Shown: positions 7,162-52,900 of the stretch, one piece after another
How the letters are laid out: each line of letters begins with the position of its first letter
Numbering within the stretch: position 1 is the stretch's first letter
DNA from: Plotosus lineatus
Lineage: Eukaryota; Chordata; Actinopteri; Siluriformes; Plotosidae
Direction: 5' to 3'
Assembly: GCA_024760905.1 (NCBI GenBank)
Contig: CM045734.1
Span: forward strand, 37,821,064 to 37,885,063
DNA length: 64,000 bases
Notes under the pieces: model-generated
The model's input: the letters and a program-made list of their open reading frames with translations, nothing else
Told to the model about the DNA's origin: nothing
Database searches by the model: none
Position numbers and translations under genes: made by a program

Positions 7162-7934
7162 TCAGGGGTCGCCACAGCAAATCATCCGCCTCCATCTCAC
7201 CCTGTCCTCTGCATCTTCTTTTCTGACTCCAACGACCTTCATGTCTTCCTTCACCACATCCATAAATTTCTTCTTTAGTCTTCCTCGAGGCCTTCTGCCT
7301 GGTTGTTCCAACCTCAGCATCCTACTGCCAATATACTCACTATCCCTCCTCTGTACATGTCCAAACCATCTCAATCTAGCCTCTCTGACTTTGTCTCCAA
7401 AACATCTTACATGGGCTGTCCCTCTGATGTACTCATTTCTGATCCTATCCATCCTCGTTACTCCCAGAGAGAACCTCAACAATTTCATCTCCACTACCTC
7501 CAGCTCTGCCTCCTGCCTTTTCCTCAGCGCCACTGTTTCTAAGCCATACAACATCGCTGGCCTCACCACCGTCTTGTACACGTTTCCCTTCATTCTTACT
7601 GACACTCTCCTATCGCACATCACACCAGATACTTTTCTCCAATCATTCCAGCCTGCCTGCACACGCTTCTTCACCTCTTTTCCACACTCTCCATTGCTCT
7701 GGATTGTTGAGCCTAAGTACTTAAAATCCTCCACCTTCGTTATCTCTGCTCCCTGTAACATCACCGTTCCTCCTGGGTCCTTCTTATTCACACACATGTA
7801 TTCTGATTTTCTGAGGCTAACCTTCATTCCTCTCCTTTCCAGGGCATACCTCCACCTCTCTAGATTTTCCTGCACTTGTTCTCTGCTCTCACTACAGATC
7901 ACAATGTCATCTGCAAACATCATAGTCCATGGAG
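7162..7934 (-). pseudogene. RTE LINE reverse transcriptase, C-terminal half
   Basis: Encodes the F-A-D-D catalytic box ('MMFADDIVICSE'), then 'EDFKYLGSTIQSNGE', then 'PAMLYGLETVAL', and the thumb/C-terminal region 'RLRWFGHVQRRDSEYI'. The end is rich in Arg. It was cut from its N-terminal part by the nested insertion beginning at 7935. The frame is open over the whole stretch, so this half is better preserved than the rest. Confidence 0.88.
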
Positions 7935-9107
7935 ATATCAATTACCCAAACTTAAATCAAAGAGACATCCTATATACCAACTAGCATTTTCCTTTTAAAT
8001 AAGTAGCCTCCACCTTTAGTCTCTTTTATATTGTTACATTTTGCACCACTGTTTTTATCTGTTGCGTTATCTAATTTAAAAACTCAGTTTTATGTCTTAA
8101 GTCGTTACATGTCCGTTTAACTTACAGTATTCTTTAAAGTACAGTGATACCTCTGCTCACGAACATAATTGGTTCCCAGAAAGTGTTTGTGAGGCGAAAA
8201 GTTCGTCTTCCGAACATTTATTTCCCATAAGAAACCATTAAAATGAGAATAATCCGTTCCCAGGTCCCCATAAAACACAATTTTCTACTAAATAAGCCTT
8301 AAAACTACACAAAAATATACCTTATTTTATGTATAATAAATGTCTATTGTATTGTAATTAAAGAAATAAACTGTACTGTATAATAAAGTCGTTTTATTTA
8401 CCCTTGTGATGGTAGTTGATGGCTTAATGGAATTGAGTGGGAGGGAGGGAGGGAGGGACTTACTGTTTGGAAAGAGTGTTTGGAAACACGCATAGCCACA
8501 CACGCACCCTTAATAGCTTCCTTGTTCTTAAGGATGGTGGTAGACTTAGCGTACTGGTACTGGGACGCTGAGTCACACAAACGCACACCTCGTTCGTGTT
8601 TTTCAATGATCTCCGCCTGTGGTGGGGTCTTTTTCGGTCCCATAATAGCAAAAGTACACTCAATATGGTCCAAAATGTCTATCAAACACAAACCACTTCC
8701 GCATTCAAAGAAAGGGGTGTGACGAACTGTGACGCCGTGAGCGTGCGTCAGCTTCTCGTGGCCGCCACCGTGGCGCTGTTCGACCGCGTGGTTTGATTCG
8801 GCCGCCGAAAACTAGTTCGTCAGCAGAGACAATATGCTCGCAAATTTAATGTTCTTGAGGCGAAAAGTTCGTGAGCTTAAGCGTTCGTCAGCGGAGGTTT
8901 TACTGTATTTTTAAATTTTATTTTTGAAATTTTAGTGCTAGTTTCTTACATTGCACCTTAAGATATTTAATATTTAATGTTATATATGTATTATGTCTTC
9001 ATGTTTGTAATATGTTCTTATGTATGTATGTTTTATGGAGCCTGTGTACGTGCAAGACAAATTCCCTCCTCGGGCAATAAAGTATTGTCATTGTCATTGT
9101 CATTGTC
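7935..9107 (+). mobile_element. 5'-truncated LINE 3' end inserted in RTE copy 2
   Basis: The segment ends in 'gggcaataaagtattgtc' followed by reiterated 'attgtc', which is typical of the 3' tails of L2/CR1-like fish LINEs. It replaces nothing in the host LINE: the coding sequence resumes on the other side. It is itself interrupted by a TA-flanked Tigger-type element at 8142-8905. The clade assignment is inferred from the tail only. Confidence 0.62.
8142..8905 (-). mobile_element. Tigger-type non-autonomous element, copy 1
   Basis: The TIRs are CAGTGATACCTCTGCTCACG and, in reverse, CAGTAAAACCTCCGCTGACG, with TA on both sides (8140-8141 and 8906-8907). The interior still encodes the first part of a Tigger transposase on the minus strand ('[20 protein letters not shown]', about 8450-8653). 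This then runs into a GGGA repeat, and the rest of the transposase is gone. A second copy lies in reverse orientation at 46497-47279. Confidence 0.85.
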
Positions 9108-9626
9108 GAGATTCTTGTCTCACCTCGTCTGTCAGTCTGTCCATCACCATAGCAAACAAGAAGGGGCTCAGAGCTGACCCTTGATGCAGTCCCACCTCCA
9201 CCATGAATTCGTCGGTCACACCGACAGCACACCTCACCACTGTCTTACATCTCTCATACATGTCCTGCACCACTCTAACATACTTCTCTGCCACTCCAGA
9301 CTTCCTCATGCAATACCACAGTTCTTCTCTCAGCACCCTGTCATATGCTTTTTCCAGATCCACAGAGGCACAATGCAGCTCCCTCTGTACTTCTCTATTA
9401 ACATCCTCAAAGCAAACATTGCATCTGTGGTGCTCTTTCTTGGCATGAAACCAAACTGTTGTTCACAAATGCTGACCTCTGCCCTTAGTCTAGCTTCCAC
9501 TATTCTTTCCCATAACTTCATCGTATGGCTCATCAACTTTATCCCTCTGTAGTTGCCGCAACTCTGCACGTCTCCCTTGTTCTTAAAAATGGGCACCAGC
9601 ACACTTCTCCTCCGGCATCTGCTCAC
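9108..9626 (-). pseudogene. RTE LINE reverse transcriptase, central part
   Basis: Frames at 9330-9626 and 9100-9363 encode 'VLVPIFKNKGDVQSCGNYRG', 'FGFMPRKSTTDAMFALR', 'LEKAYDRV' and 'GLHQGSALSPFLFAMVMDRL'. These are the template-grip and palm motifs of RTE-clade reverse transcriptases. A frame change near 9350 separates the two pieces. Confidence 0.85.
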
Positions 9627-10455
9627 TCTCGAGGACCTTGTTGAATGTTCTTGTCAGAAAATCTACTGCTACCTCTCCAAGACACTTCCATACATCCACA
9701 GGTATATCATCAGGACCAACTGCTTTTCCATTCTTCATCCTCTTCAATGCCCTTCTCACTTCACCCTTACTGATCTTTGCTACATCCTGCTCCTCAATGG
9801 TCACCTCTTCTACTCTTTTCTCTCTCTCATTTTCCTCATTCATCAGCTCTTCGAAGTACTCTTTCCATCTACCCAGCACACTTCTGTCATCAGTCAATAC
9901 AGTTCCCTCTCTGTCCTTTATCAATCTAACTTGCTGCACGTCCTTCTCATCTCTATTTCTCTGCTGTGCCAACCTGTATAGATCATTTTCTCCCTCTTTA
10001 CTGTCCAACCTATCATACAAGTCATCATATGCCCTCTGTTTGGCCTTAGCCACTGCTACTTTCGCCTTACGCTGTGTCTCCCTGTACTCCTGTTTACTCT
10101 CTTCGGTCCTCTCTGTGTCCCACTTTTTCTTAGCTAACCTCTTCCTTTGTACACACTCCTGCACTTCCTCATTCCACCACCAAGTTTCCTTATCTACTTT
10201 CCTTCCAGAGGACACACCAAGTACTCTCCTACCTGTGTCCCTGATCACATTTGCTGTGGTTGTCCAGTCATTTGGAAGCAGTTCCTGGCCACCCAAAGCC
10301 TGTTTCAACTCCTCTTTGAAGATAACACGACCCTCTTCTTTTTTCAACTTCCACCACTTTGTCTTCTGCTCTGCCTTTGCCTTCTTCACCTTCCTCACCA
10401 TCAGCGTCATCCTGCACACCACCATCCTATGCTGTTTGGCAACGCTCTCACCCAC
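9583..10455 (-). pseudogene. RTE LINE linker between endonuclease and reverse transcriptase
   Basis: A 290-residue open frame, rich in Lys, Arg and Glu. It contains 'ETWWWNEEVQECVQRKRLAK', 'AKAKQRAYDDLYDRLDSKEG' and 'RRALKRMKNGKAVGPDDIPV', the conserved entry to the reverse transcriptase. The homologous segment in copy 1 lies at 516-947. Confidence 0.85.
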
Positions 10456-10461
10456 TACTAC

Positions 10462-11266
10462 TTAGCAGTCACTGACTTCCTTCAAATTACATCGCCTACA
10501 CAAGATGTAGTCTACCTGTGTGCTCCTACCTCCACTTTTATAAATCACCCTATGCTCCTGTTTCTTCTGGAAGAAAGTATTCACCACAGCCATTTCCATC
10601 CTTTTTGCAAAATCTATCAACATCTGTCCTTCTGCGTTCCTGTCCTGGATACCAAACCTGCCCATCACTTCCTCGTCCCCTCTGTTGCCTGCACCAACAT
10701 GTCCATTGAAGTCTGCACCAATGACCACTCTTTCACCTCTGGGGGTACTCTACATGACTTCATCTAAGTCACTCCAAAATCTCTCCTTCTCTTCTAGCTC
10801 ACATCCTGCCTGTAGGGCATAAGCACTAACAACATTGAGCATTACACCTTCAATTTCTAACTTGAGACTCATCACTCTGTCTGACACTCTTTTCATTTCT
10901 AGAACATTCCTGACAAACCCCTCCTTCAAGATGACTCCTACTCCATTTCTCTTCCCATCCACACCATGATAAAATAGCTTAAACCCTGCTCCTAAGCTTT
11001 TAGCTTTTCTACCTTTCCACCTGGTCTCCTGAACACACAGTATGTCCACCTTTCTCCTCTGCATCATGTCAGCCAGCTCTCTACCTTTTCCTGCCATAGT
11101 TCCAACATTCAAAGTCCCCACTCTCAGTCCTAGACTCATGCCTTTCCTCTTCTCTCTCTGCCTACGGACACGCCTCCCACCTCTCCTTCTTTGACGTCTT
11201 CGACCAACAGTAGTCCAATTTCCATCAGCACCCTGTTGATTGACAGCACTGATGGCGGTCGTTGTT
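10462..11266 (-). pseudogene. RTE LINE endonuclease domain
   Basis: Two frames (10750-11283 and 10462-10728) together encode an exonuclease-endonuclease-phosphatase fold domain. Recognisable pieces are 'VGTLNVGTMAGKGRELADMM', 'KVDILCVQETRWKGRKAKS', 'VVSAYALQAG' and 'VIGADFNGHVGAGNRGDEEV'. The frame breaks between about 10728 and 10750. Confidence 0.87.
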
Positions 11267-11281
11267 AAACCAAAACCATAC

Positions 11282-12206
11282 AAACACGCAAAAAAGTCAG
11301 AATTTCAGCTTTCGTTTACAAAATAGTTACAACTAATTATAAATATCTGGATTAAACAACTTCGAATTTGGAACCTTTTAGTTTGATTCCACACATTTTG
11401 AATGATCAAAAATGGTAACATTTATGATGAACAGCTATTTCTTTTTGACTAGGTGTATGCCATATGATTGATTGTTTATACAACGATTTTACAGCTTGTC
11501 CACTTTTGGTCTGAGCCTTGCTTTTCACCTTTGTAAACAGCATTTGCTGTCAAAAAGGATAAACCAACATAATGACAAGCAAGCTTTTTATGGTGGGAAA
11601 TCAAACCATTTTGAAAAGAAGAAAATATAGTAAGAATCTACCTTCTCAGGTTTTTCTCCAACCAAAACATAACACCTATCTTTTAGATGAACAAGAACTA
11701 CTCATGGATTATATGGTGAGATGGGCATGGATAGGGTTGCAACCAAAGTCATCAGTGAGACAGGAACACTGATAGTGACAACTGATTTCGACATTAGTCA
11801 TGTTTCAGACATTTCTGTGCATATACCTTGTGAGCAAGATGAATTTGTAGTTTTACTTTCATTTCAGTTTGTATTTTTAGTGCAGTTTTGGGCTAAACAC
11901 TCTCTAACAAGTGAGCAGAAACTGGTTTTGGTTTACTGTTTGAAAACATGCAGCCAGAAAGACCCTAAAGGCTTATTATAAAGATCTGCTATGTCATACT
12001 GTTACTTTATTGTTTTTTTTTGTACCCAAACCTGATTTAACATAGTCTCCAGTAGAGGAACTAATTCTGTTTATCGTTTGGAAATTGAGATCTTTTGACA
12101 CCTTCAGGAGCAGCAAAGCCAGGTGTAATCTGATACCTTCCTCTATCTCATAACTGCACTCTATTCTTCAACATTCAGTGAAAATATCAATTAGGTTTCT
12201 TTTCAG
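11282..12206. other. Upstream region of the FAM169-family gene
   Basis: No repeat or convincing coding block is visible. The first coding exon starts directly behind a splice acceptor (TTCTTTTCAG), so at least one 5'-untranslated exon and the promoter lie upstream, here or further left. I could not place them. Confidence 0.45.
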
Positions 12207-12207
12207 G

Positions 12208-14701
12208 ATGGAGTACCCAGTGGATATATTGGCCGAAGTGGATCCTGAATCCCTGGAGCAGTCAGCGAAAGACTATATGTCTAAACTTCTCTTCAGAAAT
12301 CCAGAAATACATGAATACCTCAAGATACGTGGCTCCAAGAATGTAAGACTGGTCTGCTGTTTTAAGAAATAACTATTTAAAATTATTATTTTCGATGATG
12401 TCTAAACTCGCTACAATTGTCACATGACGGCTGATGTCTTCTTGGAAAAGAACCTTGGTAGAATATTGCATGTGACCTGATAAAGTGCATGACATTGTTT
12501 TGTGCCACACTGCTTACAAGATAGTTTGAAAAGTGTATCGCAGATTTCTTGTTCATGGGGGAAAAAAATATAAACATTCAAATCGACAGGGAAATTTATA
12601 TTCCTCCAATTCACTAGGTGGTGAGAAAATGCTATTTTCATGCATTTTCTACTTTCAGAGACCTTTTTACATTTGTCATTGGTAAATATTTTATTGGACA
12701 TAGATAATACTATCGATAACTTATTCAAAGTGAATCAAGATGGTAACCAGTCTTTATAAGTAAACTACACTGCAACATTAATTCAGTTTATTGATTATCA
12801 ATTATTTTCTTTTTTTTTTTAATGTCATGTTATAGCTAGAAATTGGCCTCTGTAATGTGAGTTTTGTCCCCCTCTATGGAGTTAATATTAAACAGAAGAT
12901 CCTCGCATTGTTTTCACCTGAAGACCGTTTTAAAGGTAATATGCATATGCTAAATTAACAATCTAATTTTTACATTGATTATATATTGGATTAATGACAA
13001 TGTATTGTTCACGGTATTAGCTGTTGGGCTTTACCTGCTGGACCAGTGGTGGTCAGCTGAAGAGATTCTTAAAACTGCAGACTCCTCACGAAGCGGACTG
13101 ATTGAGGTTGCAGCTACAGTATTTACTGCTAGTTTGCAATACAAATAGTCAGTTACTAAAAAACAAGTCCAATATTGAAGGTTTTTTTTTTTTTCTTTTT
13201 CACCTCAGGTCAGAACCCCTGGAGAGAGAATAGTTCTATATGTTCTGAACAGAATTATCTACAGAACAAAGGAGAGGGACAGCAATGATGTGCCCTTTCT
13301 TTGTCATAAAGAAGACGAACTTGCCAAGATCTTCTGGAAAAATGGCGAGGCCATTGGCTTTTACTCGGTCAAACCTGAAGGTATGATCTCTCTATCCAAG
13401 TTCACAAGTGTAAATGAAGGGAGAAATTAATGAGTAGAGTTTATTGATAAGGCCAATTTGAGACATATTTGAGTATATTTGATATATTGTAATCGACTTC
13501 TCTTTGCCTTGATGTGTACTCGTACTCGCATTCGCTACTGTATACTTTAGTGTAGTTCAGCGTACAGTGTCCTGGTTGGCAAACCATCACAAAACACAAA
13601 ACTGAAATGCTATGATGTGCACTTTTCAATTCATTCAGAATATCTGGACTAATAAATGATTTGATTTCCACCATGATAATAAATGTGAAATTGCATTTAT
13701 CAAGTAATATGAGGTAAGCAAGAGCTTTTCATCAGTGGGAAAAAGTTGCATCATGACAGTGTAAGTGTACTGAAGCCCAGAACAATGTGTGCACAAGCCA
13801 TCAGGGGGAGGAACACTTATACCCTGGCACAGGACAAGGCAACCCTACGTAATGTAATCAACCCTGAAACTTTCCTCCACTCAGGTTGAATGAAACAGAA
13901 TGTTATAAATCAGAGTTGTTCAGTACTACATATATCAACTTTTCAAATCACAGATGTTTTCTTATAGACTTGAAGAAAAGTTTGTGTGAATTTATTGTTT
14001 AGATAAAAGCTTGGTGGGAAAGAGAACTGCCAGTGATTATTCGGTTAGTTGGTTCGGAACAACCATTTAATAAAAAAGAAATTTGGACTAATTTTGGAGA
14101 GGCTACCAGTTATTTCTATTTTTTACAACATATGTTAGGAACCCGTTAAATACATTAATATTTTTCAAGGCAACCACAGAATTATATTCCATGTTTCCTC
14201 CTCCCCTGATTAATAGGTGAACTATGCAGTAGCTTCCTGACCCAGCATTATCAGCTTCCTGTTATGGATACCATATTTATCCGTAAACATTACCGTGGCA
14301 GGGGATATGGTCTTCAAATGCTGGAGGACTTTGTTGACAGTTTCAGAAAAGATTTCATGGGTTTGAAATATCCACTTTCACCAGCTATGTACAGAGGTAT
14401 TATTATAAACCAATAAAATTTCATTTCCATGCATGACGGTGGTTTTTCTATACTGTAGTCTAATACTCTATTTTGTCTATACTTCATTTTCTAAAGTACA
14501 TATACTAAACTTCTTATAGTTTGCAAAAAGTATCTGAGCCTTCATCCAGAAAATACAGAGCTGCTATTGGAAATTGAGGGTGTTGGAAGCCCGTTTCAGA
14601 GAACTCAGATAGCAAAAAGACTACAAGTAATGGAACTAAAAGGTAAAGCCGATATTACAATCCAGGTTTAAAAGCTAGGAAGTTGCAATTTTGTGTAATT
14701 C

Positions 14702-14742
<41 letters not shown>

Positions 14743-17700
14743 AGGAAATCACCAAGTCGTGGAGAAGTTGAATTTTGATACAGAAGACAGTGATGTTCAG
14801 ATGGAAGTTGGTATTGCACAACTACAGAAGACTATGGAGTACACAGAAGTGGTATGTAAATTATTTCTATATAAATACTAGATATAACTTCATTATAAAA
14901 TATTATATTATCATTACTATGCTGTATAGCATTTTGCATAAATATCATACTGTAAAAGTATTACTTAGGGTGTTGGGAAATAACTCCAATATTTTTGCCT
15001 CTACGTTATAGGAGGAGATAGTCCAGATTAATATAAGAAAAGGCAAGTATTTTATGCAAAGTAAATTCCATGAAAGTTGTTTTGTTTCTAGTTACCTTTT
15101 CTCTTCAACTTGATAAAAACAGGGCCGGTGCTACCATTATCTAGACTAGGCAGCTTCCCAAGACACAGGCTAAAGGAAAGCACAGCTTGTGTTTGTCATA
15201 TTATTGAATCTGTAATCAGTTTAATCAATTTTATTCTGATCTTATTTCATGTGTTTGGAGTTCAAGTGATGATGGCTTGTACAAGAATGGGGGGTGGGAG
15301 GTTCAAAACAGGATCTCACACACTGCCTTGCATCATCCCTGAATAGAAATATAGGATGATGTAAGAGCAGAAAGACCCTTGTTTTTGGAGATGAACCTCT
15401 CCTTTTATGTCATGTTTAAAAAGCCACGTGATCTACATAAGTGCCAGAATTTTACCATATTTTAATTGCTGTGCAGCATACAGAATGTGGTTGTAAGTGA
15501 AGGCTGTTAGGAAATGTTGCATCAGGCTTCTGCTCACGTATGTAGGTTTTTGAGTAAGTGTGACTTTGATTGTAGCATAGTAAATCTGGTAGTATTGGAG
15601 ACCTGAGAATGGCCAGATTTCTTTGCAGAGCATGTGCCCCAGTAGGCTGTCAATCTGTCGTGCCCTAGTAAAATTTCACTTTCAATTTTTAACGAGTTTC
15701 TCTATTTAGTAATGGATTAGATTGATATTAAAGTAAAAAATTTTTGATTTTCTTTTATAAGCTTCAATGTCAAATAAAAACTTTTTAGCCCAAAATACAA
15801 GCTGTGGCATGCACCTTCCTTGCAGCCCCAGCTCATATACTGCAGCACACACACACAACTGTTTGAGTCAATGCACCCCAGCTCACATGAAGTAATCCAG
15901 GGATTGGTGTTCAGAACAAGATTCAGAATTGAAGCTTGATACTGACTCGAAAGCACACTTCAGAAATGCAGTGGGCACGAAACAAAAATATGTAAATTCT
16001 TTAAGACTTTAATGTGCCTAGGCAGAGTACATGCCCAGAGGGCATACTCCATCTCCCTGAGATCTGGCTGTCATCTTTTTTTTTTTTTTGAGGTGGGGGG
16101 TGGGGGAGTGGTCTTCACCGCCATATAATTACTGTATTTTAGTATGAGCTAGATACAGTAAATTGACTATCCATATCATGGATGTTTAGTACACTAGTCC
16201 ACGATATGAAGTCCACAGCCCTCTAACTGCTGTTTTCTACTGATAGAACCATATTCAAGACGTATTTAAATTAATGTAGAATATTAAATAAATTGAAAGG
16301 CGACGCAGTTTTACAGGCAATACTGGTCAACAGAACTTATTTTTAAGATATTTTGTTCATCTTAATGAAGATTATTGTGTAAACACATCACTATGGAGAC
16401 ATGAAAGTGGTTATAAGTTAGCAATTCAACCACCATAAATGCCAAACATACTCTTCCACAATCACATTTGTATGTATTGTTGTATTTTATTATTATTTTT
16501 ATTTTATTACCAATGCATTCGTTTGTATTCTAGCCATCACCACAGATGTGCAGGACACACCAGTGACAACCCGTGCCAGAAGCAGAAATCTGAAGCAAAT
16601 AAATTTGGGAATAGGCTCGGAAGAGACAGCTGAGAAAATAATCAGGTTACTTTTCAACATTAACATGCGCCAGTCTTGTCTAGTAACTGAGGCTTACCTT
16701 TCATATCCGCACAATAGGAATGCTTAGTTTAATTTAACTGTTTATGATTTTTAAAATGTGTGTGTTGCAGGGTAGAAGGCATTGAGCCTGATGTTCAGTG
16801 TACAGAACATGACCCAGGGCATGAGGATGGAAAAGATTTTTTAAATTTAAACGAGTCTGAACTCAAGGTATGTATAAATAATAATTTTATGGGGAAATTT
16901 AAATACAGGTAAATATAAGTCTTCTAATTTTGGTGTGCCTGGAACACACTGAATGAAAACTACCAAGTTGTGCTAGATATTTGGGAATTATTATGCATGA
17001 ATTCACATAGCCACCAAGTTACTGTAATGGGCCATTTCATGTTGTTTTGATTTGTGTTTTCTGCTTATATTCAATCGCTGACCTGGTAAAGACAAAAAGG
17101 ACAGAGAAGCTCAATTAGGGGCGTCTTGTGAAAAATCTACAACAAACTTAAAATAAAGTGTATACTATAGGTAAAGTCTTGGGTTCAAACCCAATGCCCG
17201 GTGAGGGGGTTTCTGTGTGTAGTTACCATGTGCTTGAGTGGGTTTCCTCTTCGTGCTTACCCTGCCTTTGCCTGGAGTCAGCTGGATTGAGTGCCAGCCT
17301 CCCCGTGCCCCGAATAAAGAATAAAGCAGTCCATAATATAAGATAACAACATGAAAATGTGGCATTAAAATATTTCATTGTTTCCTTTTGCCTTATTTTA
17401 AAGTGTAATATATTGCGGTGTGAGCTATGAGATGTCTCATTCAGCCAGTAGTTTTCCGGGAAATGCCAAATCTGTATCCAAATTCTCATTGATATGTACC
17501 TGTGGCTAAAAACCCGAGCAGTTTGTACTGGCATTTCTGTGAGTACAACCGTCAGAAGTTTCCCTGTCAGTTTGCTTGAGATGATTGACAATCACTAGAA
17601 TGGAAGCTGGTAATTATTTGTTTAAGATTACACTGTTTTACTATCTAAAAGAGCGCTTCCAAATATGTAGATACTGTATCATCACACATGTGAATAACCT

Positions 17701-20700
17701 GAAAAATCACATTCTGTGTGTTAACATTGTGCTTAACCATGTATCTACACATGGTTGTGAAGTAAGACAGAATTTAAAAATATTATCTATTAACAATAGT
17801 TGTTTTTTTTTTACAGGACACAATGGACATGATGACACAGGGTGTGACTCCTCCCATATCAGCAATTTCCCATCACTATGAAGAACAAACAAAAATCCCC
17901 CCTGTACCTACTGATGAGTCAGAAAAAGAACGTGTGGTGGAAATATCTCCCTTCATGGTAATCCAAACCCTAAAGAGCAAGGAGGATGCAGATATTGAAA
18001 CTGAAAAGATGCTAGAAAAAGCTGTAGAGGTCAAGGACATTACAGGTGATGTTGAGATCGTATTTTTAGATGGGAGAAAAACCTCTGAAAAAATTGTACA
18101 GGCACAACAACAACAAAAGGATGTGGAAGAAGTCCCTATCAATGAAGATACAGTAGACATGAGAAGAATATTAGCGGTTGAAAGTATTGTTGACACAGAA
18201 CAAAGAGAAATACATAAAGAGGAGGCTGGAAATCTCAAGGTGACTTCAGTAGAAAGTGAGCAGGTGACCAAGAAGGACACATTGGATGAGACTGGCATAG
18301 TTCAGGATTGTTTATCTGAAGAAGACAAGGAAACTGAAGATGAAGAATCAAGGTCTGATAATGAAAAAGAAAAAGTCAGTACAATAATTCAACAAGAGGA
18401 AAATTTAAACATGGTGTACAGGTCCGCCTCACAAGAAAAACATGTCAAACGAAAATCAAACTACCAAACTCCATTACAGCATTCTAAAAGACTTCATGAT
18501 CAGGCTGGCGACCATGATCAGGAAAGCAAACTGACCGAAAGGGTTCTCAGAAGTTCTTCTAAGAAAACGCTCAGCAATGTAGACACAACACAAACCAACT
18601 ATATTAAGCAACAGGAGGAAATCAAACAGGTAGAAGATGACTGTATAGGAAAAGAATTAAACCAGAGAGATTCTCAGGTTGAACTTGGGAAAAAAGAACA
18701 TGTTGAGGGTATCACTGAAAATGAGAGTGTGGAACAGAAAGTTGAGTCAGTGAACATCAACACCGAAGTCGATAGTGAAAATCTGATTGCAAATCTGAAA
18801 GATAATGAAAAAGAAGCACATATTGAAAAGGACTGCTTAGATCAACATACAGCTGACCAGAACTTTATGGAATTGAGGACCAAAATGGAAACTAGTGCAC
18901 AGGATGAAAATAAGATGGATAACAAGTTACAGAATGAAGAACAAGAAAAAGTGATTGAAGTAGAAAAAGTTGGAAAGACAACTGAAGCCAATGAGGACAT
19001 CAGATTTGTAGATATTAGTAATACTGAAGCCTCTGAGATAATGATTGATAGAAAAGCATTGGAACCATCTACCGCAGAACATGTTGAAGAAGAGGAAGAG
19101 GAACGAGGCTCAGAACCTACATTAGCAGATGATGACAACAACACAGAAGCCGTTTTGAAACAACAAAAAGCTGCTGTTGTCGATTCCACTGAAAGTCAGC
19201 AAGTAGTAGAAATGATAGACAATGACAATATTGAAAAAGGAGAAGTAAGACATGATGTGATGGAAATTGTTCAAGATGTATCACAGGATGAAGATCAATT
19301 TCCAGAATCAACTATTACAGATGAAAACCCTACAGGTGAGGTTCAAGAAGAAGAATCTATGGAAGAACCTTACCCGATTCAAAGTGAGGAACCAAAAAGG
19401 AATGATTGTATGCCAAGTTATGATTATAACACTGGTAAGACAAATAAGGATGATGATGATGATGATGATAAAATAGTAGTTGTTGATGTTCATGAAGACG
19501 TAAATACAGCTGAAATAGAGGCTGAAGGAAAATCAATGGAACAAACTGGTTCGGAACTCGTAGAAGAGCAAAAGGAAGAAGCAGTGCATACTGTTCAGCA
19601 CACTAAAGAAACAGTATCAACTTTGAAACTACAAAAGGGTGATCTTGAGAATTTAGACAATGATTCCGCGGTACAGACATATGCCAGCAAAGATGCTGAG
19701 GAAACATCACAGCCAGAAAGTAATGATGATGGCGCGAACACAGAAGAATTAAACCAGAAGCTTGTGCCTATTGAAAAAACTAAAAATTTGGAAATGACAG
19801 AAAATGGAAAAGTGGAAATTATGAACAAAATTGAAAATAATGGCATTGAACAATCAGAAGAAACAATGGAAACTACAGGGAGAGTTATGTCAACTGATAT
19901 AGACAAGGATTCAGAGTTGATTACAGATGAGAACAAGATGAATGAGTTTGAAGATGAGAAGGTAGTGAAAGAGCCAATGACTATTCATAACACGCCAAAT
20001 GAGGACATGAAAAACAAAGATAGAATTGATTCATGTGAAGATGATGAAGGGCTGAAACCAAATGATCAGATTGACCTGTCTGAAGAGGATGAAGAAAAGA
20101 GAAATGATGTAACACCATTACGGCGTTCTAGAAGACTGAAGCATCAAGCTGCAGAAAAGACAGAAGTTATCAGGAGTGCCACCAAAGCAGCTAAAACTTC
20201 TTCTAAGTCTAAAGCCATAAAGGAGCAAGCGAAAACTAACCAAGCCGTAGATGATCCTGAAGTTGCGAAGATGCAGGACGTTGTGGAGTTACATATTGGA
20301 ACTGGTGTGGGAGAGAAAATCGAGTCAGCAAGCAGCACTACTGACAACTGGGGTGAAAACTTGATTTCAGCTTTACCTGAAGATGTTGAGAAAGGTATAA
20401 ATGTTGATGTGGAACACGTAGAAGAAAGAAGAACTGATTATCAAGACCTCATAGAAGTAGAGGAAAAAATGGAAGATAAGATTAATATTGAGGTGGAAGA
20501 AAAAACATCAGAACTGCCTACTGCTGAAGCTATTGAAGAGCAAGAGGAAGAAACAATCACCGATATGGTCACAAAAGGTGTCAAGGCCACTGAAGAAACC
20601 ACATCAGTTTTGAAATTGACAGAAGCGACCGTCATGCCAGTGGATATTAATAGAGTTACCCTAATACATGATACCGATGCCGAGGGAACCTCACAGCATC

Positions 20701-23700
20701 AGAAGGAGGAAGAACTGGAAGTTCATAAGTCAAAAGGTCCTGGTCCAGATCCTCAGTCTGAACTAACTGAACAAAAGGAGGTGGAGGATATGACCAAAAA
20801 TGAAAACACAGAAGAAATAGATGAAAAGCTAGAGCGTGCAAAAGATGCACTGAATGATGAAGACAGAGTTCCAGGGTCAGCAGTTACTAATAAAGAAAAC
20901 ATGGAAGAGGTTCAGAAAGAGACCAACACTGTTCAGGACATACCAGGTGTAGAATTAAACAGTCGAGCTGACATTGAATCAGATCAAGCTGATGAAGATG
21001 AGGAACCAGATGTTCCAATTGAACTAGATGGGGCAAGCTTAAAAACTCTAAGACACTCTAGAAGGCTCCAGGATGAGGGTGGAGAAAGTGAACTAATAAA
21101 AAGAGGTCTCAGGCGTTCAAGAAGACTGAGAAACAAAGGCACTCCACAAAGAGTGCCTGATGCTGATGACCACAAAAATATTAAGAGCGGATGCACATCA
21201 CATGGAAATAAAATGGAAGAAAATATAAAGGGAGTTGATCCTACAGAACAAGATGAGATGGCACAAGAGGATATACTCCATGGAAAAGCTGAACAAATCT
21301 GCCCACCTGTAGAGAAATCAGTTGTAGATGTCAAGAATTCTGAGGTTGCAAAAGAAGTTGAAAATGAAGTGCAAGAAGAGGGAACACTCATAGAAATGGT
21401 GCAAGGAGGGTATAATCAGAATGTGATAGAAACCACATTAGAAGAAGCTTTTGTTGTCCTTGTTGATGTCAAAAACGTTCTTCCAAATCTAATACGTGAC
21501 GATAGTTCTAACATGGAGGAGATGGGTCACGAGATTGAAATGAGTCAAGCAGCGGTACCTGAAGAGTTAACCGAAGAATTTCAGACTGATGATGTAGAAG
21601 AAAAGCAGACCGAGACAGTAAATCCCACTGAAGCGGTTCCCATGGGACTAAATACATTGGCAAAGGATACAGCTGAGGAACAGGACAATGCAGCATTGAA
21701 TAATTTAAAAAATGAGACAACTAATAGCAGTATGCTTGAGGAAGAACCATACAATGATGAAACTAAGGTGGAGGAAGGATCCAAAACAGGACAGGTCACC
21801 CAGAAAGATCCAGTTTTAACCCAAGATTCAGTCCTTAAATGTTCAGGGGCAACCAAACACGTGCGGGATATCTCAGATCTTCATAATACTGAACTTGTAA
21901 AGGATAATATTTCTGTTGAGGAAACGAAAAAAGAACTGGCCATAGAATTGATACCAGAAGAAGACCAGAAGGATGCAGCTGAGTCCGTTTCCATGTTAAA
22001 GCTCCATGAAGCTGCTGTTGTGCTTGTGGATTTCCAAAGACAGGCAGCTAAAAATGAGACCAATTTAAATGAAATGACACAATCACTGGAAGTAGGGGTG
22101 CAAACAGGGGCTAATGCTGCAAATGAAGAGAAGGCATCGGCTGAGATGCATGGAACAGACCCTTTGTCAGAACAAAAAGAAGAAGTGGAACTGGGTGCAG
22201 ATAATGAACAAGACATTCTTGTGGAAAAGGTATTGAAAGATGATTTGAAAGATGTAGAAGCCAGAGCTAAATCTGAGAGTACAGTGCCTGTTCAAGGTGA
22301 CATTGCCCAGAAAATCACTCAAGATGAAGATATTCCAATTTACTCAAGCAGGAATCTCAGACGTAGGACTCTACCTGTGAAGGCTACACCAGAAAAGTCA
22401 AGACTTCTCCAAAATATTTCCACAGAAACAGAGGCAGATGAGGAGGCCTCAGACAAAGAAGCTGAAAAAGCATTTTCAAGACATCTCCGACAAAGAACAA
22501 TAACACCAGGAGGAAAAGCTAAATGCCTCACACATACACATTTGGCAGAGCTGGAAATGGAGGCACATGGTAATCAAGTTCATCATGAAATAGAAGCAGT
22601 GCAAAGCACTGAAGAGGCCAAAACTGCTGTGGAAGACCGGCATGAGACCAGCGGTGAGGAAATACCTGCTGTTTCTGAGCTGGCAATACAAGACCAGCAC
22701 CAAGATGAAAATGCACCAGGAAGTGATGCAGGAAAAGTAGAGGAAGCGACTAATAATGGAAAAGATATGGTAAAAGAAGCTGTTGATCATAAGGAGGTTG
22801 AAACAGCAAAAATGTATTTTTTCAGAGAAGGTGATCCACGAGATGAGAGTAAAGAGAAAGAAGTATTTGATGAGATGGAACAAGCACAAGAGAGAAGTGA
22901 AAATTCCAGTCAAGAAAATGACCAACAGTATAATGCTGTGGAGGAAACACTGCTTGAAAAGTCATTTGAAAATGAGTTTCCTAAAACAATGGAAGAACAT
23001 CTTGATGATAAAGTTGGCTCTGTGAATATGTTGATTACAAAAGCAGTTCCCTGTCATTCAGAAGAGGACATATGTATTGAAAGAAGAGTATTAAGAAAAC
23101 GAAAAATAACTTCCGAAGCCACACCTTTAAGGAGATCCAAACGGCTCCGGAAACAAAATCAAGATGAAAATGTTGGACAGGCAATTGTGTGGCCAAACAC
23201 CGAAGATTCTACACCTATAGAGGCAACAGAGACCAGTACAGCTGATGTGAATTCACCTGCAGAAAATAAAACCACTGATGAAGGAAAAGATCAAAAAATA
23301 GATGGTACTGATACTGTGGATGATGGCATCTCCCATAAAGAAGAGGACATGGAAAATGCAAAAGGTGAAGAAACTTCTGGGAATTTAAATAATAGCCAAG
23401 AAAAAACAATGACCGATGATGTGAGTAAAAAGGTCGAGTTGAGTGAGGTTTTCAATGTTTTAGGAGAAGATACTGACGCTAAGCTTTTTGAACAAGAAGA
23501 AAATGGTGAGGAGCACCAGGAAGAACAAGTAGTAGCAGAAGAGAGAAGGGAGTCTGAAAACAATGCCTTGAAAGCTGATAAAGTAACTGATGAATCCCAA
23601 CAATCAGAAGATATTCACCTAGAGTCAGAGCAGAGTGAAAAAAGTGATGAGGAAATCACTGAAGCCAGTCTAAATGCAGGTGAAACTTTCACCTTGGAGC

Positions 23701-24044
23701 TGGACGAGGAGCTTGATAGTGGTGATGCAGAGACTAGCCAAGTGGTTGAGGACAACAAAGTTTCATTTCAAGAAAATAAGAAGGAAATCACAAATGTAGA
23801 GTCGGAAGCAATGACAAAATGCATCCATCAAGGCAGGAAATCAGCAACAGCTTCAAGGAAATCAACGAGGAGAAGCATGAGATTGCTACTGGATATTCAG
23901 AGTGAATTGGAAGATAACCCAGAAGCAGAAGAAGTAAAAAAGGTGTTTGAGGACAACAACGAGAAACATCAACAAAAAAGAAAAGCCATCAAGGAGCTAA
24001 CTCCTCGCCGATCTAAACGGCTTGCAAGAGCAAAAATAGTGTAA
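12208..24044 (+). CDS. fam169a: FAM169-family protein (soluble lamin-associated protein relative), giant C-terminal exon
   Basis: Coding exons: 12208-12342, 12836-12935, 13021-13106, 13209-13380, 14217-14396, 14520-14642, 14745-14851, 15012-15042, 16534-16645, 16771-16867 and 17817-24044. All phases join, giving about 2456 residues. The N-terminal ~230 residues match FAM169A as I recall it: 'MEYPVDILAE', 'FVPLYG', 'YLLDQWWSAEEI', 'ERIVLYVLNRIIYR', 'GEAIGFYSVKP' and 'YRGRGYGLQMLEDFVDSF'. The last, R191-G-R-G-Y-G196, resembles the acetyl-CoA loop of GNAT folds, but activity is not shown. Human FAM169A is about 670 residues and lamina/nucleus-associated. Here the last exon alone encodes 2075 Glu-rich residues with repeated R-R-S-x-R-L motifs. 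Intron 8 appears to use a GC donor (AAAAG/GCAAGT). Paralogue assignment (A or B) is uncertain. Confidence 0.87.
17158..17340 (+). mobile_element. tRNA-derived SINE fragment in a FAM169 intron
   Basis: It contains 'gggttcaaacccaatgcccg', 'gtgggtttcctcttcgtgct' and 'tgagtgccagcctccc'. These are parts of the common fish SINE type also seen at 25075 and 32540. The head is degraded. Confidence 0.5.
17817..24044 (+). other. 6.2-kb terminal coding exon of the FAM169-family gene
   Basis: A single open exon following the acceptor TTTTTTTTTACAG and ending with TAA. It encodes a low-complexity, acidic (Glu/Asp/Val/Thr-rich) chain, probably disordered. Basic motifs recur at about 18469, 20112, 21046, 21108, 22354, 22482, 23088, 23860 and 24000 (for example 'TPLRRSRRLK', 'LRHSRRLQ', 'LRRSRRLRNKG', 'TPLRRSKRLRKQ' and 'TPRRSKRLARAK'). 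The last sits at the extreme C-terminus. A second degenerate repeat, (S/T)-x-LKL-x-x-A-x-V, recurs near 19616, 20607 and 21994. A seven-Asp run is at about 19450. Long minus-strand open frames opposite this exon are composition shadows. Confidence 0.9.
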
Positions 24045-24062: not shown

Positions 24063-24068
24063 AATAAA
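24063..24068 (+). terminator. Polyadenylation signal AATAAA of the FAM169-family gene
   Basis: AATAAA lies 18 bases after the stop codon, which implies an extremely short 3' untranslated region if it is used. ATTAAA also occurs at about 24127. Confidence 0.6.
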
Positions 24069-26519: not shown

Positions 26520-26868
26520 ATACTTCCATGTCTTCCTTTTGGCTTTTTCCCTTTTTTTTTTTACTCGGAGTTGCCACAGCGAATCATCTGATTGGCACGT
26601 TTGATTTGGCAGAGGTTTTTACGTCAGATGCCCTTCCTGTCACAACCCTTTATAGTAAGGGACAGAAACACGCTGACGACTTTGCAGCTACTCTTTACGA
26701 AAGTCAGCAATGGTTCTTTTACATGCCTTTCACCATAGACAGTGAGAGACATGGCCCGCCTTTGATAACCCAGTTAGCTGCACTGGGGGGGGGGGGGGGA
26801 CTTGAACCCCCAACCTTTGGATCAGCGATCCGGTGCCCTATACCACTAGACCACCACTGCCCCCAGTG
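26520..26868 (-). mobile_element. Composite tRNA/RTE-tailed SINE
   Basis: Reverse-oriented member of the main family. The RTE-type tail is at 26535-26650, the 'catagacagtgagagacatgg' segment at about 26733, and the tRNA-like head at 26800-26866. A G-run replaces part of the 'gtcactgtccccc' segment. Confidence 0.82.
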
Positions 26869-29106: not shown

Positions 29107-30359
29107 GTCCTCAAAAAATTAGCATATTGTGATAAAGTTCATTATTTTCTGTAATGTACTGATAAAAATTAAACTTTCATATATTTTAGATTCATTGCAC
29201 ACCAACTGAAATATTTCAGGTCTTTTATTGTTTTAATACTGACGATTTTGGCATACAGCTCATGAAAACCCAAAATCTCAAAAAATTAGCATATCATGAA
29301 AAGGTAGTCTAAACGAGCTATTAACCTAATCATCTGAATCAACCAATTAACTCTAAACACCTGCAAAAGATTCCTGAGGCTTTTAAAAACTCCCAGCCTG
29401 GTTCATTACTCAAAACCGCAATCATGGGTAAGACTGCCGACCTGACTGCTGTCCAGAAGGCCATCATTGACACCCTCAAGCAAGAGGGTAAGACACCGAA
29501 AGAAATCTCTGAGCAAATAGGCTGTTCCCAGAGTGCTGTATCAAGGCATCTCAGTGGGACGTCTGTGGGAAGGGGCACAAAACACTGCACAACCAAAAGA
29601 GGTGACCGGATCCTGAGGAAGATTTTGGAGAAGGGCCGATTCCAGACCTTGGGGGACCTGTGGAAGCAGTGGACTGAGTCTGGAGTAGAAACCTCCAGAG
29701 CCACCGTGCACAGGCGTGTGCAGGAAACGGGCTATAGGTGCTGTATTCCTCATGTCAAGCCACTTTTGAAGCAGAAGCCTGTTTTTCAGCACGACCTGGC
29801 ACCTGCTCACAGTGCCAAAACCACTGCTAAATAGTTTACTGACCATGGTATTACTGGGCTCAATTGGCCTGCCAACTCTCCTGACCTGAACCCCATAGAG
29901 AATCTGTGGGATATTGTGAAGAGAAAGTTGAGAGACACCAGACCCAACACTGTGGATGAGCTTAAGGCCGGCATCCTGGGCCTCCGTAACACCTCAGCAG
30001 TGCCACAGGCTGATTGCCTCCATGCCACGCCGCATTGAAGCAGTCATTTCTGCAAAAGGATTCCCGACCAAGTATTGAGTGCATAACTGAACATAATTAT
30101 TTGAAGGTTGACTTTTTTTTGTATTAAAAACACTTTTTTTTTTTTTTTTTTTAATTGGTCAGAAGAAATATGCAAATTTTTTGAGCTAGGGATTTTTGGT
30201 TTTTCTTTACTTTTTTTTTAACCAATATTAAAACGATAAAAGGCTTGAACTACTTCAGTTGTGTGTAATGAATCTAAAATATATGAAAGTCTAATGTTTA
30301 TCAGTACATTACAGAAAGTAATGAACTTTGTCACAATATGCTAATTTTTTTAGAAGGGC
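29107..30359 (+). mobile_element. Tc1/mariner transposon, copy 1
   Basis: Flanked by TA (29105-29106 and 30360-30361). The inverted ends share 'aaaaaattagcatattgtga'-type sequence at the termini, repeated about 170 bp inward ('caaaaaattagcatatcatg'), which is an IR/DR arrangement. The element is about 1.25 kb and encodes a broken transposase. Confidence 0.92.
29424..30050 (+). pseudogene. Tc1 transposase with internal deletion
   Basis: The N-terminal helix-turn-helix region ('MGKTADLTAVQKAIID', 'SEQIGCSQSAVSRHLSG') is followed by the second helix region to 'HVKPLLKQK'. It then jumps directly to 'PVFQHDLAPAHSAKTTAK', so the segment carrying the first catalytic Asp is deleted. A stop follows 'KTTAK' at 29832. 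The final Asp/Glu region 'SPDLNPIENLWDIVKRKLRD' is still readable downstream. Confidence 0.88.
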
Positions 30360-49900: not shown

Positions 49901-52900
49901 CCCCTCTGACAGGAGACTCTTCCAAATGTTCCCAGGAGACCCTAACTACACGCTTGGGCCTAGCAGGTCTGGAGGGTGGCCTCCCATACCATCGGAGCCA
50001 GCTCACCACCAGGTTGTGATCGGTTGACAGCTGCACCCCTCTCTTCAACTGAGTGTCCAGAACATGCAGCTACAAGTCTGACATGACTACAAAGTTGATC
50101 ATCGAACTGCGGCCAAGGGTGTCCGAGTGCCAAGTGCACTTATGGACACCCTTATGTTCAAACATGATGCTCGTGATGGACAAACCATGACGAGCACAAA
50201 AGTCCAACAAGAAAACACCATTTTGGTTCAGACTGGAGGCCGTACCTACTGATCACACACTTCCAGGTCACACTATTTTTCCCACATGGGCGTTGAAGTC
50301 TCCCAGGACAACGAATGAGTCCCCGGGGATAGTTCTCCAACACACTCCCTAGGGACTCCAAGCAGGGTGGGTACTCTGAACTGCCATTTGCTGCGTAACC
50401 ACAAACAACAGTCAGGACCGAAGGCGGAGGGAAGATACCCTTTCGTCAACCGGGGAGAACCCAATGTGTGGGCACCGAGACACTGGCTCGGCACCTCTCC
50501 CCATCAGCAACCTCAGAATGGAATAAGGTACATCCCTCTCGAGATCGGTGGTGCCAGAGCCCAAGCTGTGTGTTGAGGTGAGTCTGACCATATCTAGCCG
50601 GTATCTCTAAACCTCACAAACCAGCTCAGGCTCCTTCCCCGAAAGAGGGGGTGACTTTCCATGTCCCAAGAGTCAGAATCAGTTAGCTGAGGATCGGGCA
50701 GACAGAACCCATGCCTTCGGTTGCTACCCAACTCACACTGCACTCGACCCCTATAGCCCATCCCACAGGTGGTGGGTCCATGGGAGGGTGAACCCATGTC
50801 TCTTTTTCGGGCTGGGCCTGGCCGGGCCCCATGGACAGAAGCCTGACCACCCAGGTGCTCGCCTTTGAGCCCCTCCTCCAGGCCAGGCTCCATGGGGGAC
50901 CCCAGTGACCTGTGTCCAGTCAAGGGAAACGGTGTCTTTTTAAGTTTCTCCATAGGGGTCATTGAACTGTACTTCTTCTGGACCTTCATTGAGAACCTGT
51001 TTTCCTTGGGTGACCCTACCATAGGCATAATGCCACCAACAGCATAGCTCCTAGGATCATTAGGACACGCAAACCCCTCCACCACGATAAGGTGGCAATT
51101 CAAGAAGAGGATGAACTGGGTGTGTTTTGCAATAATAACTGGTTCAATGTGCATTATCCTGCTTATTATGTGGCTACTTCATGGATTTCATCACTTCTGT
51201 TAATGAAACGCTCCACAGCTGTGGTCTGTTTTTCTTGGTCAAGTATAAAAAAATTAAAAAATACTGAAAACCTTAATTGACCAATCAGAATTGAGTATGC
51301 AAATGAAACATCTAATAAATTGTGTTAAATACAAAATCCATCTCTTTTTGTTTCCTTTAGGCCCAAATTCACTTGATCGGAAACACAGTTACCTGGTCAT
51401 TTGCAAACCTTGCACTTTTTGTTTACATAATCCTGTTTTTAACTTATCTACTGAGACGGCGGCGGAAAATAGAGGACATCCCTGAAGGTATGTGGTTGGC
51501 TTCTTAAATTAAAACTCCTGACCAGAATTTTCAGGTGAAAATAGTGATTCTGTTTATATTAATTTGGCAACTTGGGAAAAAAAAAAAACATCCCTAAAAT
51601 AACCACTTTATATTTTTGTCCCATGTCCGTTAGCATTGATGTTTGCCCCCCCCCCCCTTTTTTTTCCTCCCATCATTATATATGTTGCAGTATATATGCA
51701 GTTACAGTATTTCCTTTGATTACACACCAAAACACTATTATTAGGAACACCACACAAATACTTCGTATGCCCTCGTAAAGAACTGACTGATTGGAATATT
51801 ACAAAATACATTTACATGCTATGAATAATACTTTGAGAGTCTGACTATTAATGCGTGTTTACTGATTTTCATTTGTGAAGAATATTTTGTGTATCTCTTG
51901 TTCATATGCAAAGGGAGAGTTGCATATGGTTTTTATGTTAAATAAATATCCACTATAGAAATCATGGTGCAGGTTTTTTTTTTTTTTTTTTTTTGGAGAA
52001 CTGTTACGGCAAAGTTCTGCAGCCTCCCAAGTGGCATATTGACAATATGCATTGATATTGGTCCGCAAGTTCGAATCCAGGTTAATGCCACAGCCGTCCA
52101 TAACCGAAATGTCGGCTGAGCTAATTGGTGTACGCTCACTTCTGTCACTCACAGCAATCGTCAGCCAATTATGGGCCTCTGTGAGCTCATTCATATGAGC
52201 AGGCAGTGTGATAGACAGTCCCCAAAATATGCATGGGCTGCAGTTTGTAGAAAGACTCAGATGGTTAGCAGTGTATTCGCCAGAGGAGGTGTGTACATGC
52301 CTTCGCCCCTTCCTGGTCGGTGGTGATTGTGTGATGGGGAAGTTAATACCTGATGGTTGGGCATTGGACATGTCTAAATTATGGAGAAAACGGGGGGGGG
52401 GGGGTTCCTATGGTACATCCATCCCATTAACTGATAGCAGAAGTGATAATCTGCATCTGCCCCAACTTCGACCTGAATTACACTTTGTTTTGCTCACACT
52501 TAGCCTCTTGGGAGCAGTTGGTGCTGGCGGGTGTTGTCTGCTCTGGAGGATGGGCCGTCAATTACCTGCCTTTCTTTCTGATGGACAAGACACTGTTTCT
52601 GTATCATTATCTCCCAGCCCTCACTTTCAAAATTCTACAGATCCCTGTTGTTGTGGAACACCTATGCACTCACACTCTGAGGTAAAACTAGAGAGAAATT
52701 TTATCTTCATCATCTCATTTTTCTTCCACAGCTACATGTGTAGATACTGCTCTTTTTCTCACCCCAGATCCCCTGCATATCAGAAGGCATTCGGTGGAAT
52801 AGTCCTCGCAGCATCGTGCATGGTGTATATTTGCTATCATACCTTCAGTCCCCTGACATACGGCCAGCCAGAGCTCACCTCGGAGCAGCTGAATACACTG

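Follow-up and report, generated by a model that had tools for sequence, protein, structure and literature searches.

What does an exceptionally long, 6.2-kb coding exon of Plotosus lineatus encode? The exon lies in a 64,000-nucleotide stretch of contig CM045734.1 (assembly GCA_024760905.1, forward-strand positions 37,821,064 to 37,885,063; hereafter the window, in whose own numbering positions are given) and completes a predicted gene that we take to be the siluriform fam169aa, one of the two teleost copies of FAM169A (SLAP75). Comparison with relatives shows the predicted tail to be the family's single C-terminal basic box multiplied between acidic spacers, and the long tail to be an old teleost feature of the fam169aa branch. 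The anatomy and evolution of the tail are well supported; its function we infer. As the probable explanation overall, we propose that the aa copy of this nuclear protein, which has a GNAT head, evolved into a multivalent charge-block tether that attaches to DNA, chromatin or the lamina.

The ordinary FAM169A protein ends in a basic box, for example PPVVDRRVLRRKAKTARGPAKKRSKT in gar, with the consensus RVLRRRTK...ATPKRKSKRL. Its strongest positions form the motif RxLR (R 86%, L 89%, R 91%), followed by R (73%), S (67%), T (63%) and P (61%), and one third of boxes contain a cyclin-dependent kinase (CDK)-type site, [ST]Px[KR]. A first-round profile built from 19 short-tailed proteins found 142 copies scoring at least 0 bits in 48 of 53 long tails, against 0, 1 and 0 copies when the tails were reversed, shuffled, or shuffled inside 40-residue blocks. 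Retrained twice on its hits, the profile found 563 copies at 2 bits in 102 tails, against 15 in reversed and 3 in locally shuffled tails; the retrained profile had already seen many of these sequences, and the first-round result is therefore the cleaner test. The pattern of the second half of the box, [RK][RKH]S.R[LIMV], has 164 matches across the 53 long tails, where shuffles predict 1.07. The tail encoded in the window holds seven boxes at 2 bits or more, the best at residues 2135-2163, as well as half boxes at 1460, 2399 and 2442-2453; the extreme C-terminus retains the second half of the box only, the full box standing at 2135-2163. The initial annotation had described an acidic tail of roughly 2,075 residues. 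It is indeed acidic (isoelectric point 4.4, 25% Asp+Glu, net charge -0.13 per residue), has 36 aromatic residues in 2,075, and is predicted by the charge-hydropathy rule to be unfolded in 78 of 79 windows of 100 residues, in keeping with the disorder initially suggested; what that description missed is the repetition of the basic box.

How old is the multiplication? We labelled 219 of 223 proteins by branch, from the tree for proteins named by hand and by best head match for the rest, with basal short-tailed teleosts as a group of their own, and counted boxes in the 211 with tails of at least 200 residues. Every one of the 14 non-teleost proteins has one box. Two boxes are found in nine of ten basal short-tailed teleosts (none in the other) and in 74 of 77 fam169ab proteins (one in one, none in two), whereas the 110 fam169aa proteins have 0-18, and the 97 of these with tails of at least 900 residues have 2-18. 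Tail length follows a similar division. In a tree of 105 heads, the sequence after the head spans 406-587 residues in sharks, rays, coelacanth, sturgeon, paddlefish and gar, and the window tail is about four times as long as these non-teleost tails. The fam169ab clade, which shares the head family and an acidic tail with the window gene, has tails of 398-696 residues in that tree and 247-702 across its 77 proteins. Long tails occupy two clades, one ostariophysan and the other esocoid-percomorph, and outside them appear in one protein each from Anguilla (943), Arapaima (1,120) and Denticeps (1,526); they are common to catfishes, a characin, cyprinoids, pikes and percomorphs, and shorter in an eel, Denticeps and Arapaima. 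Both long-tailed clades hold some short models, examples being Pimephales (tail 346), Danio (138 and 815), Salarias (242), Acanthochromis (285), Sphaeramia (387) and Pempheris (506). A tree in which 65 aa-like rows were kept together scored 9.0 log units above the free search (p-AU 0.67), and in a 60-row tree the clupeocephalan aa rows group with Arapaima (91/54); the Neoarius row was omitted from the trees for low head coverage. We therefore reject an expansion confined to the lineage of the window, as had been supposed at first, because long tails are shared across many fish groups on the aa branch. A search for long proteins returned 98 FAM169 relatives of 1,157-3,562 residues, and all species named among them are fishes. 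No salmonid was noticed among these 98, though Esox, Umbra and Dallia occur, and no dedicated search was made.

The predicted coding region comprises 11 exons on the + strand, whose phases join without a stop into 381 + 2,075 = 2,456 residues (~278 kDa), of which about 265 make up the head and about 2,190 the disordered tail, the latter mostly within one exon. Exons 1-10 are short, FAM169A-like and code for the first 381 residues; AG acceptors precede exons 2-11, and GT donors follow exons 1-10 save for a GC after exon 8. As initially read, exon 10 runs in phase 0 into a single open exon of 6,228 bp (2,075 codons and TAA at 24042-24044) behind a clean acceptor (AG at 17815-17816, with a T run just upstream), and AATAAA follows the stop. 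From stop to stop the frame spans 17778-24044 (+, 2,088 codons). The base composition gives 2,075 open codons a chance of ~10^-66, the other two forward frames contain 139 and 269 stops across the exon, and a codon-position GC contrast persists along it. Could the frame instead belong to a neighbouring gene without introns, driven by a promoter of its own and fused to FAM169A only by annotation? An internal ATG could start it, but the acceptor and its phase (0) agree with exon 10, and in those catfish relatives that head and tail searches both retrieved, a single protein carries the head and the matching tail. Furthermore, four contigs of 5.9-10.2 kb hold all or much of the tail in an open frame 1,518-1,961 residues long, and in one the frame extends back to '...FWQ/DTMETL', comparable to '...FLQ/DTMDMM' at the intron/exon border of the window. 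This conserved 'DTM' border, together with the phase and the relatives, makes a separate gene highly improbable.

The N-terminal exons had been assigned to FAM169A, and database searches bear this out, with E values down to 2.4e-174 and up to 74% identity to the FAM169A/SLAP75 N-terminal region. Scored against proteins of ordinary length, residues 1-381 gave 852 matches, and most of the named ones among the 120 listed are annotated as fam169 or soluble lamin-associated protein of 75 kDa. Human FAM169A has about 670 residues, and the Latimeria relative has 673. The window gene shares with FAM169A/SLAP75 the head, the GNAT-like fold, the exon-9 segment and the basic box, which in the window is multiplied. 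Pfam reports only acetyltransferase families in the head and no family in the tail at E up to 1. The GNAT RxxGxG loop is present as RGRGYG; across 63 aligned relatives its R and last G are invariant, the G after the R is kept in at least 90%, and the middle G in less than 90%. The GNAT fold was seen in a predicted structure of a Scleropages relative (P0057), not of the window protein itself. The first model was poor (mean predicted local distance difference test score 59, with a meaningless Foldseek list), and a deeper alignment gave a usable second model, for which Foldseek returned no match at E <=0.001, the best being HAT1 complexes at 2.0e-3. A search with the tail alone yielded 12 proteins, four from the contigs and eight named; because each of the eight is from a catfish, we take the gene as the siluriform fam169aa. 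Likewise, its head sits inside catfish aa in two trees (13 rows, SH-aLRT 97; 4 rows, 100/97).

By what route did the tail grow? Among the 97 long aa tails, 46 contain a gapless 80-residue self-match of at least 50% identity and 16 one of at least 95%, the copies in these 16 lying 334-741 residues apart (for example 741 in Pimephales, 514 in Salminus and 527 in Amphiprion). This comparison shows that the relatives' tails still lengthen through duplications inside the tail. Two Pimephales isoforms (P0138 and P0139) differ by one ~355-residue stretch of repeated tail, and copy number could thus differ within species or through splicing. In the window, the best gapless 80-residue self-match reaches 0.26 identity (0.225 in one shuffle), the best gapped self-match scores 111 (78-91 in five shuffles), and the DNA repeats are short (18-49 nt, 71-94% alike). 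Since these self-matches are weak and the repeats short, the duplications in the window tail are judged from its sequence to be old and eroded, with no recent one left. Internal duplication, suggested at the outset, therefore stands as the mode of growth in relatives, without a recent instance in the window. When each tail was compared with itself by BLASTP, neither the window tail nor those of nine relatives showed an off-diagonal match; this test is blind, because a direct scan shows 95-100% repeats over 80 residues in Pimephales, Salminus and Culter.

Such growth might be a neutral ratchet, in which an unconstrained, disordered last-exon tail lengthens by slippage and unequal exchange, the boxes are passengers and length has no function. 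The aa tails vary widely in length, up to 3,268 residues, near-identical repeats sit at different offsets in different species, the boxes of percomorphs show no clear excess of conservation, and the identity of the window tail to nine proteins from catfishes averages only 48%, with 88% of its positions filled, against an average of 76% for residues 1-275. However, boxes exceed random tail segments in conservation in catfishes (1/5000) and cyprinoids (25/5000), the C-terminal half box is the most conserved 12-mer of the tail, the frame stays open for more than 2,000 codons, and 97 of 110 aa tails reach at least 900 residues while ab keeps to its two boxes. We consider a purely neutral origin rather unlikely.

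The boxes could also be nuclear-localisation signals and nothing more, the single box of ordinary FAM169A being an import signal and the further copies adding only import strength. RRRTK...TPKRKSKRL does resemble a bipartite import signal. One signal is usually enough, yet 2-18 copies are kept, and the greatest information lies in RxLR, outside the import consensus as we understand it; as the whole explanation, import strikes us as fairly improbable. It is quite unlikely, in our estimate, that short isoforms are the main product, most of the tail having been skipped or cut out before the mRNA is mature. A 408-residue Danio protein joins residue 298 to residue 976 of a 1,085-residue isoform, skipping 677 tail residues, and a 625-residue Pimephales protein departs from the long form at about residue 604; on the other side, many species have long models on record and the catfish tail is conserved throughout its length. 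The zebrafish aa-branch proteins noted (P0020 and P0035) are both short, at 408 and 1,085 residues. These alternatives are neither mutually exclusive nor wholly exclusive of the tether we favour.

Several observations weigh against the explanation that we favour. Searched with a simple pattern of the RRSxRL type, 12 out of the 53 long tails lack any copy. The window's own boxes are eroded, three of seven scoring below 4 bits, and an alignment of the box (18 typed rows, three inexact) gave 0 matches at E 10 against PDB sequences. In percomorphs the boxes, taken together, show no clear excess of conservation over the rest of the tail (636/5000), with mainly their Arg, Lys, Pro and Leu standing out. 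Tails are below 900 residues in 13 of 110 aa-branch proteins, among them a shorter model of a long Pimephales protein and a Perca flavescens protein named partial. The 60-row tree leaves the aa-like heads of Anguilla and Aldrovandia without a resolved place near the base, and the aa set was given its name only after the tree had been inspected. Finally, the boxes could be plain nuclear-import signals.

How might the tether work? We propose that each box would bind with low affinity to a polyanion or partner located at the nuclear periphery, candidates being DNA, the nucleosome, RNA, or the lamina or nuclear-envelope site of SLAP. Many boxes per chain would then form a multivalent tether keeping the acetyltransferase-like head at the nuclear periphery. 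Ki-67 (MKI67) offers the closest likeness in mode of action as a long, disordered charge-block protein, and predicted CDK-type sites occur in the boxes here. The hallmarks of Ki-67 are an FHA domain and the Ki-67 concatemer repeats; the window protein has a GNAT head instead, and Pfam detects no Ki-67 domain in its head or tail. Within the boxes, the [ST]Px[KR] sites would allow mitotic CDK to weaken or re-set the charge blocks, as described for Ki-67, a long disordered nuclear protein with charge blocks and phosphorylation in mitosis (Yamazaki 2022, PMC9106583). Mammalian SLAP associates with lamins and the nuclear envelope (PMC10958201). A bolder version, which we hold to be unlikely, is that the teleost genome duplication was followed by the remaking of one FAM169A copy: up to 18-fold multiplication of its sole conserved tail motif would have turned it into a multivalent tether to chromatin or the lamina, tunable by CDK and bearing an acetyltransferase head, which would act at the surface of the nucleus or chromosomes like a second charge-block polymer of the Ki-67 type, unrelated to Ki-67 itself.

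Table 1. Predicted coding exons, basic boxes and polyadenylation signal of fam169aa in the window
Feature	Position	Strand	Basis
Coding exon 1, start ATG 12208	12208..12342	+	gene model; tblastn lead
Coding exon 2	12836..12935	+	gene model
Coding exon 3	13021..13106	+	gene model
Coding exon 4, GNAT-like region begins	13209..13380	+	gene model, Pfam
Coding exon 5, acetyl-CoA-type loop RGRGYG	14217..14396	+	gene model, Pfam
Coding exon 6	14520..14642	+	gene model
Coding exon 7	14745..14851	+	gene model
Coding exon 8, 31 bp, GC donor at 15042/15043	15012..15042	+	gene model
Coding exon 9, VTTRARSRNLK segment	16534..16645	+	gene model, tblastn
Coding exon 10	16771..16867	+	gene model
Coding exon 11, acidic tail of 2,075 residues and stop	17817..24044	+	open frame, gene model
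Basic box SKLTERVLRSSSKK, protein 618-631	18525..18566	+	profile 3.8 bits; overlaps the tail's second most conserved 12-mer
Basic box DVTPLRRSRRLKHQ, protein 1145-1158, with TPLR	20106..20147	+	profile 4.2 bits
Basic box TEVIRSATKAAKTSSKSKAI, protein 1163-1182	20160..20219	+	profile 5.3 bits
Half box RHSRRL, protein 1460-1465	21051..21068	+	pattern
Basic box ELIKRGLRRSRRLRNKGTPQR, protein 1473-1493	21090..21152	+	profile 2.8 bits
Basic box YSSRNLRRRTLPVKATPE, protein 1890-1907	22341..22394	+	profile 13.1 bits
Basic box FSRHLRQRTIT, protein 1934-1944	22473..22505	+	profile 2.1 bits
Full basic box IERRVLRKRKITSEATPLRRSKRLRKQNQ, protein 2135-2163	23076..23162	+	profile 34.3 bits
Half box RRSMRL, protein 2399-2404	23868..23885	+	pattern
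C-terminal half box LTPRRSKRLARA, protein 2442-2453	23997..24032	+	tail's most conserved 12-mer; no profile hit
AATAAA polyadenylation signal, 18 bases past stop	24063..24068	+	read from sequence

The zebrafish gene order is gcnt4a - fam169aa - zgc:194398 - pomt1 in a table of PMC9210284. In the window, a pomt1-like exon at 52721-52939 (+) matches the C-terminal region of protein O-mannosyltransferases (PMT_4TMC, E 5e-7, below the curated cut-off); it had 0 matches to PDB at E 0.01, and a crude motif search for more POMT1 exons gave only this one beside chance matches. No GCNT4 match was found in the window by tblastn. Two database models (P0001 and P0156) fuse a GCNT4-type domain to a FAM169 head, probably as read-through annotation of neighbours. 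Elsewhere in the window are broken copies of long interspersed nuclear element-type retroelements with reverse transcriptase and endonuclease pieces (7165-11304 and 519-2087, -), Tc1-type transposase-like fragments at 29325-29831 (+, an HTH_Tnp_Tc3_2 match) and 62388-62873 (-, with a similar helix-turn-helix start), and an Rfam tRNA match near threshold (26787-26860, -; 30.4 against 29 bits), possibly a tRNA-derived short interspersed element.

Under what names has this gene been recorded? Among the 98 long relatives, 14 carry a FAM169 or SLAP name in one of the sources shown, 18 are called trichohyalin or trichohyalin-like, and titin, titin-like or titin homolog is the name of 12; the remainder have further names or none. 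Trichohyalin, titin, rootletin, CENP-E, midasin and AKAP12, all database names of some relatives, resemble the window protein in charge-rich composition, which presumably explains the naming; they differ in that the window protein has a FAM169 head and a tail free of such Pfam domains, and we reject these names for the window tail. The literature searched, part of it available as excerpts and with subscription papers and preprints not covered, yielded no account of either the long tail or the box; in the two papers that mention fam169aa or fam169ab they are single table entries, and published trichohyalin-like fish genes could not be tied to this gene. A FAM169 origin accounts for such misleading fish protein names. 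Finally, the paralogues offer a clean contrast in box number (1, 2 and 2-18), and the part of this little-studied nuclear-envelope protein that has been multiplied is likely to be a working motif, one that mammals, with their single copy, would allow to be tested.
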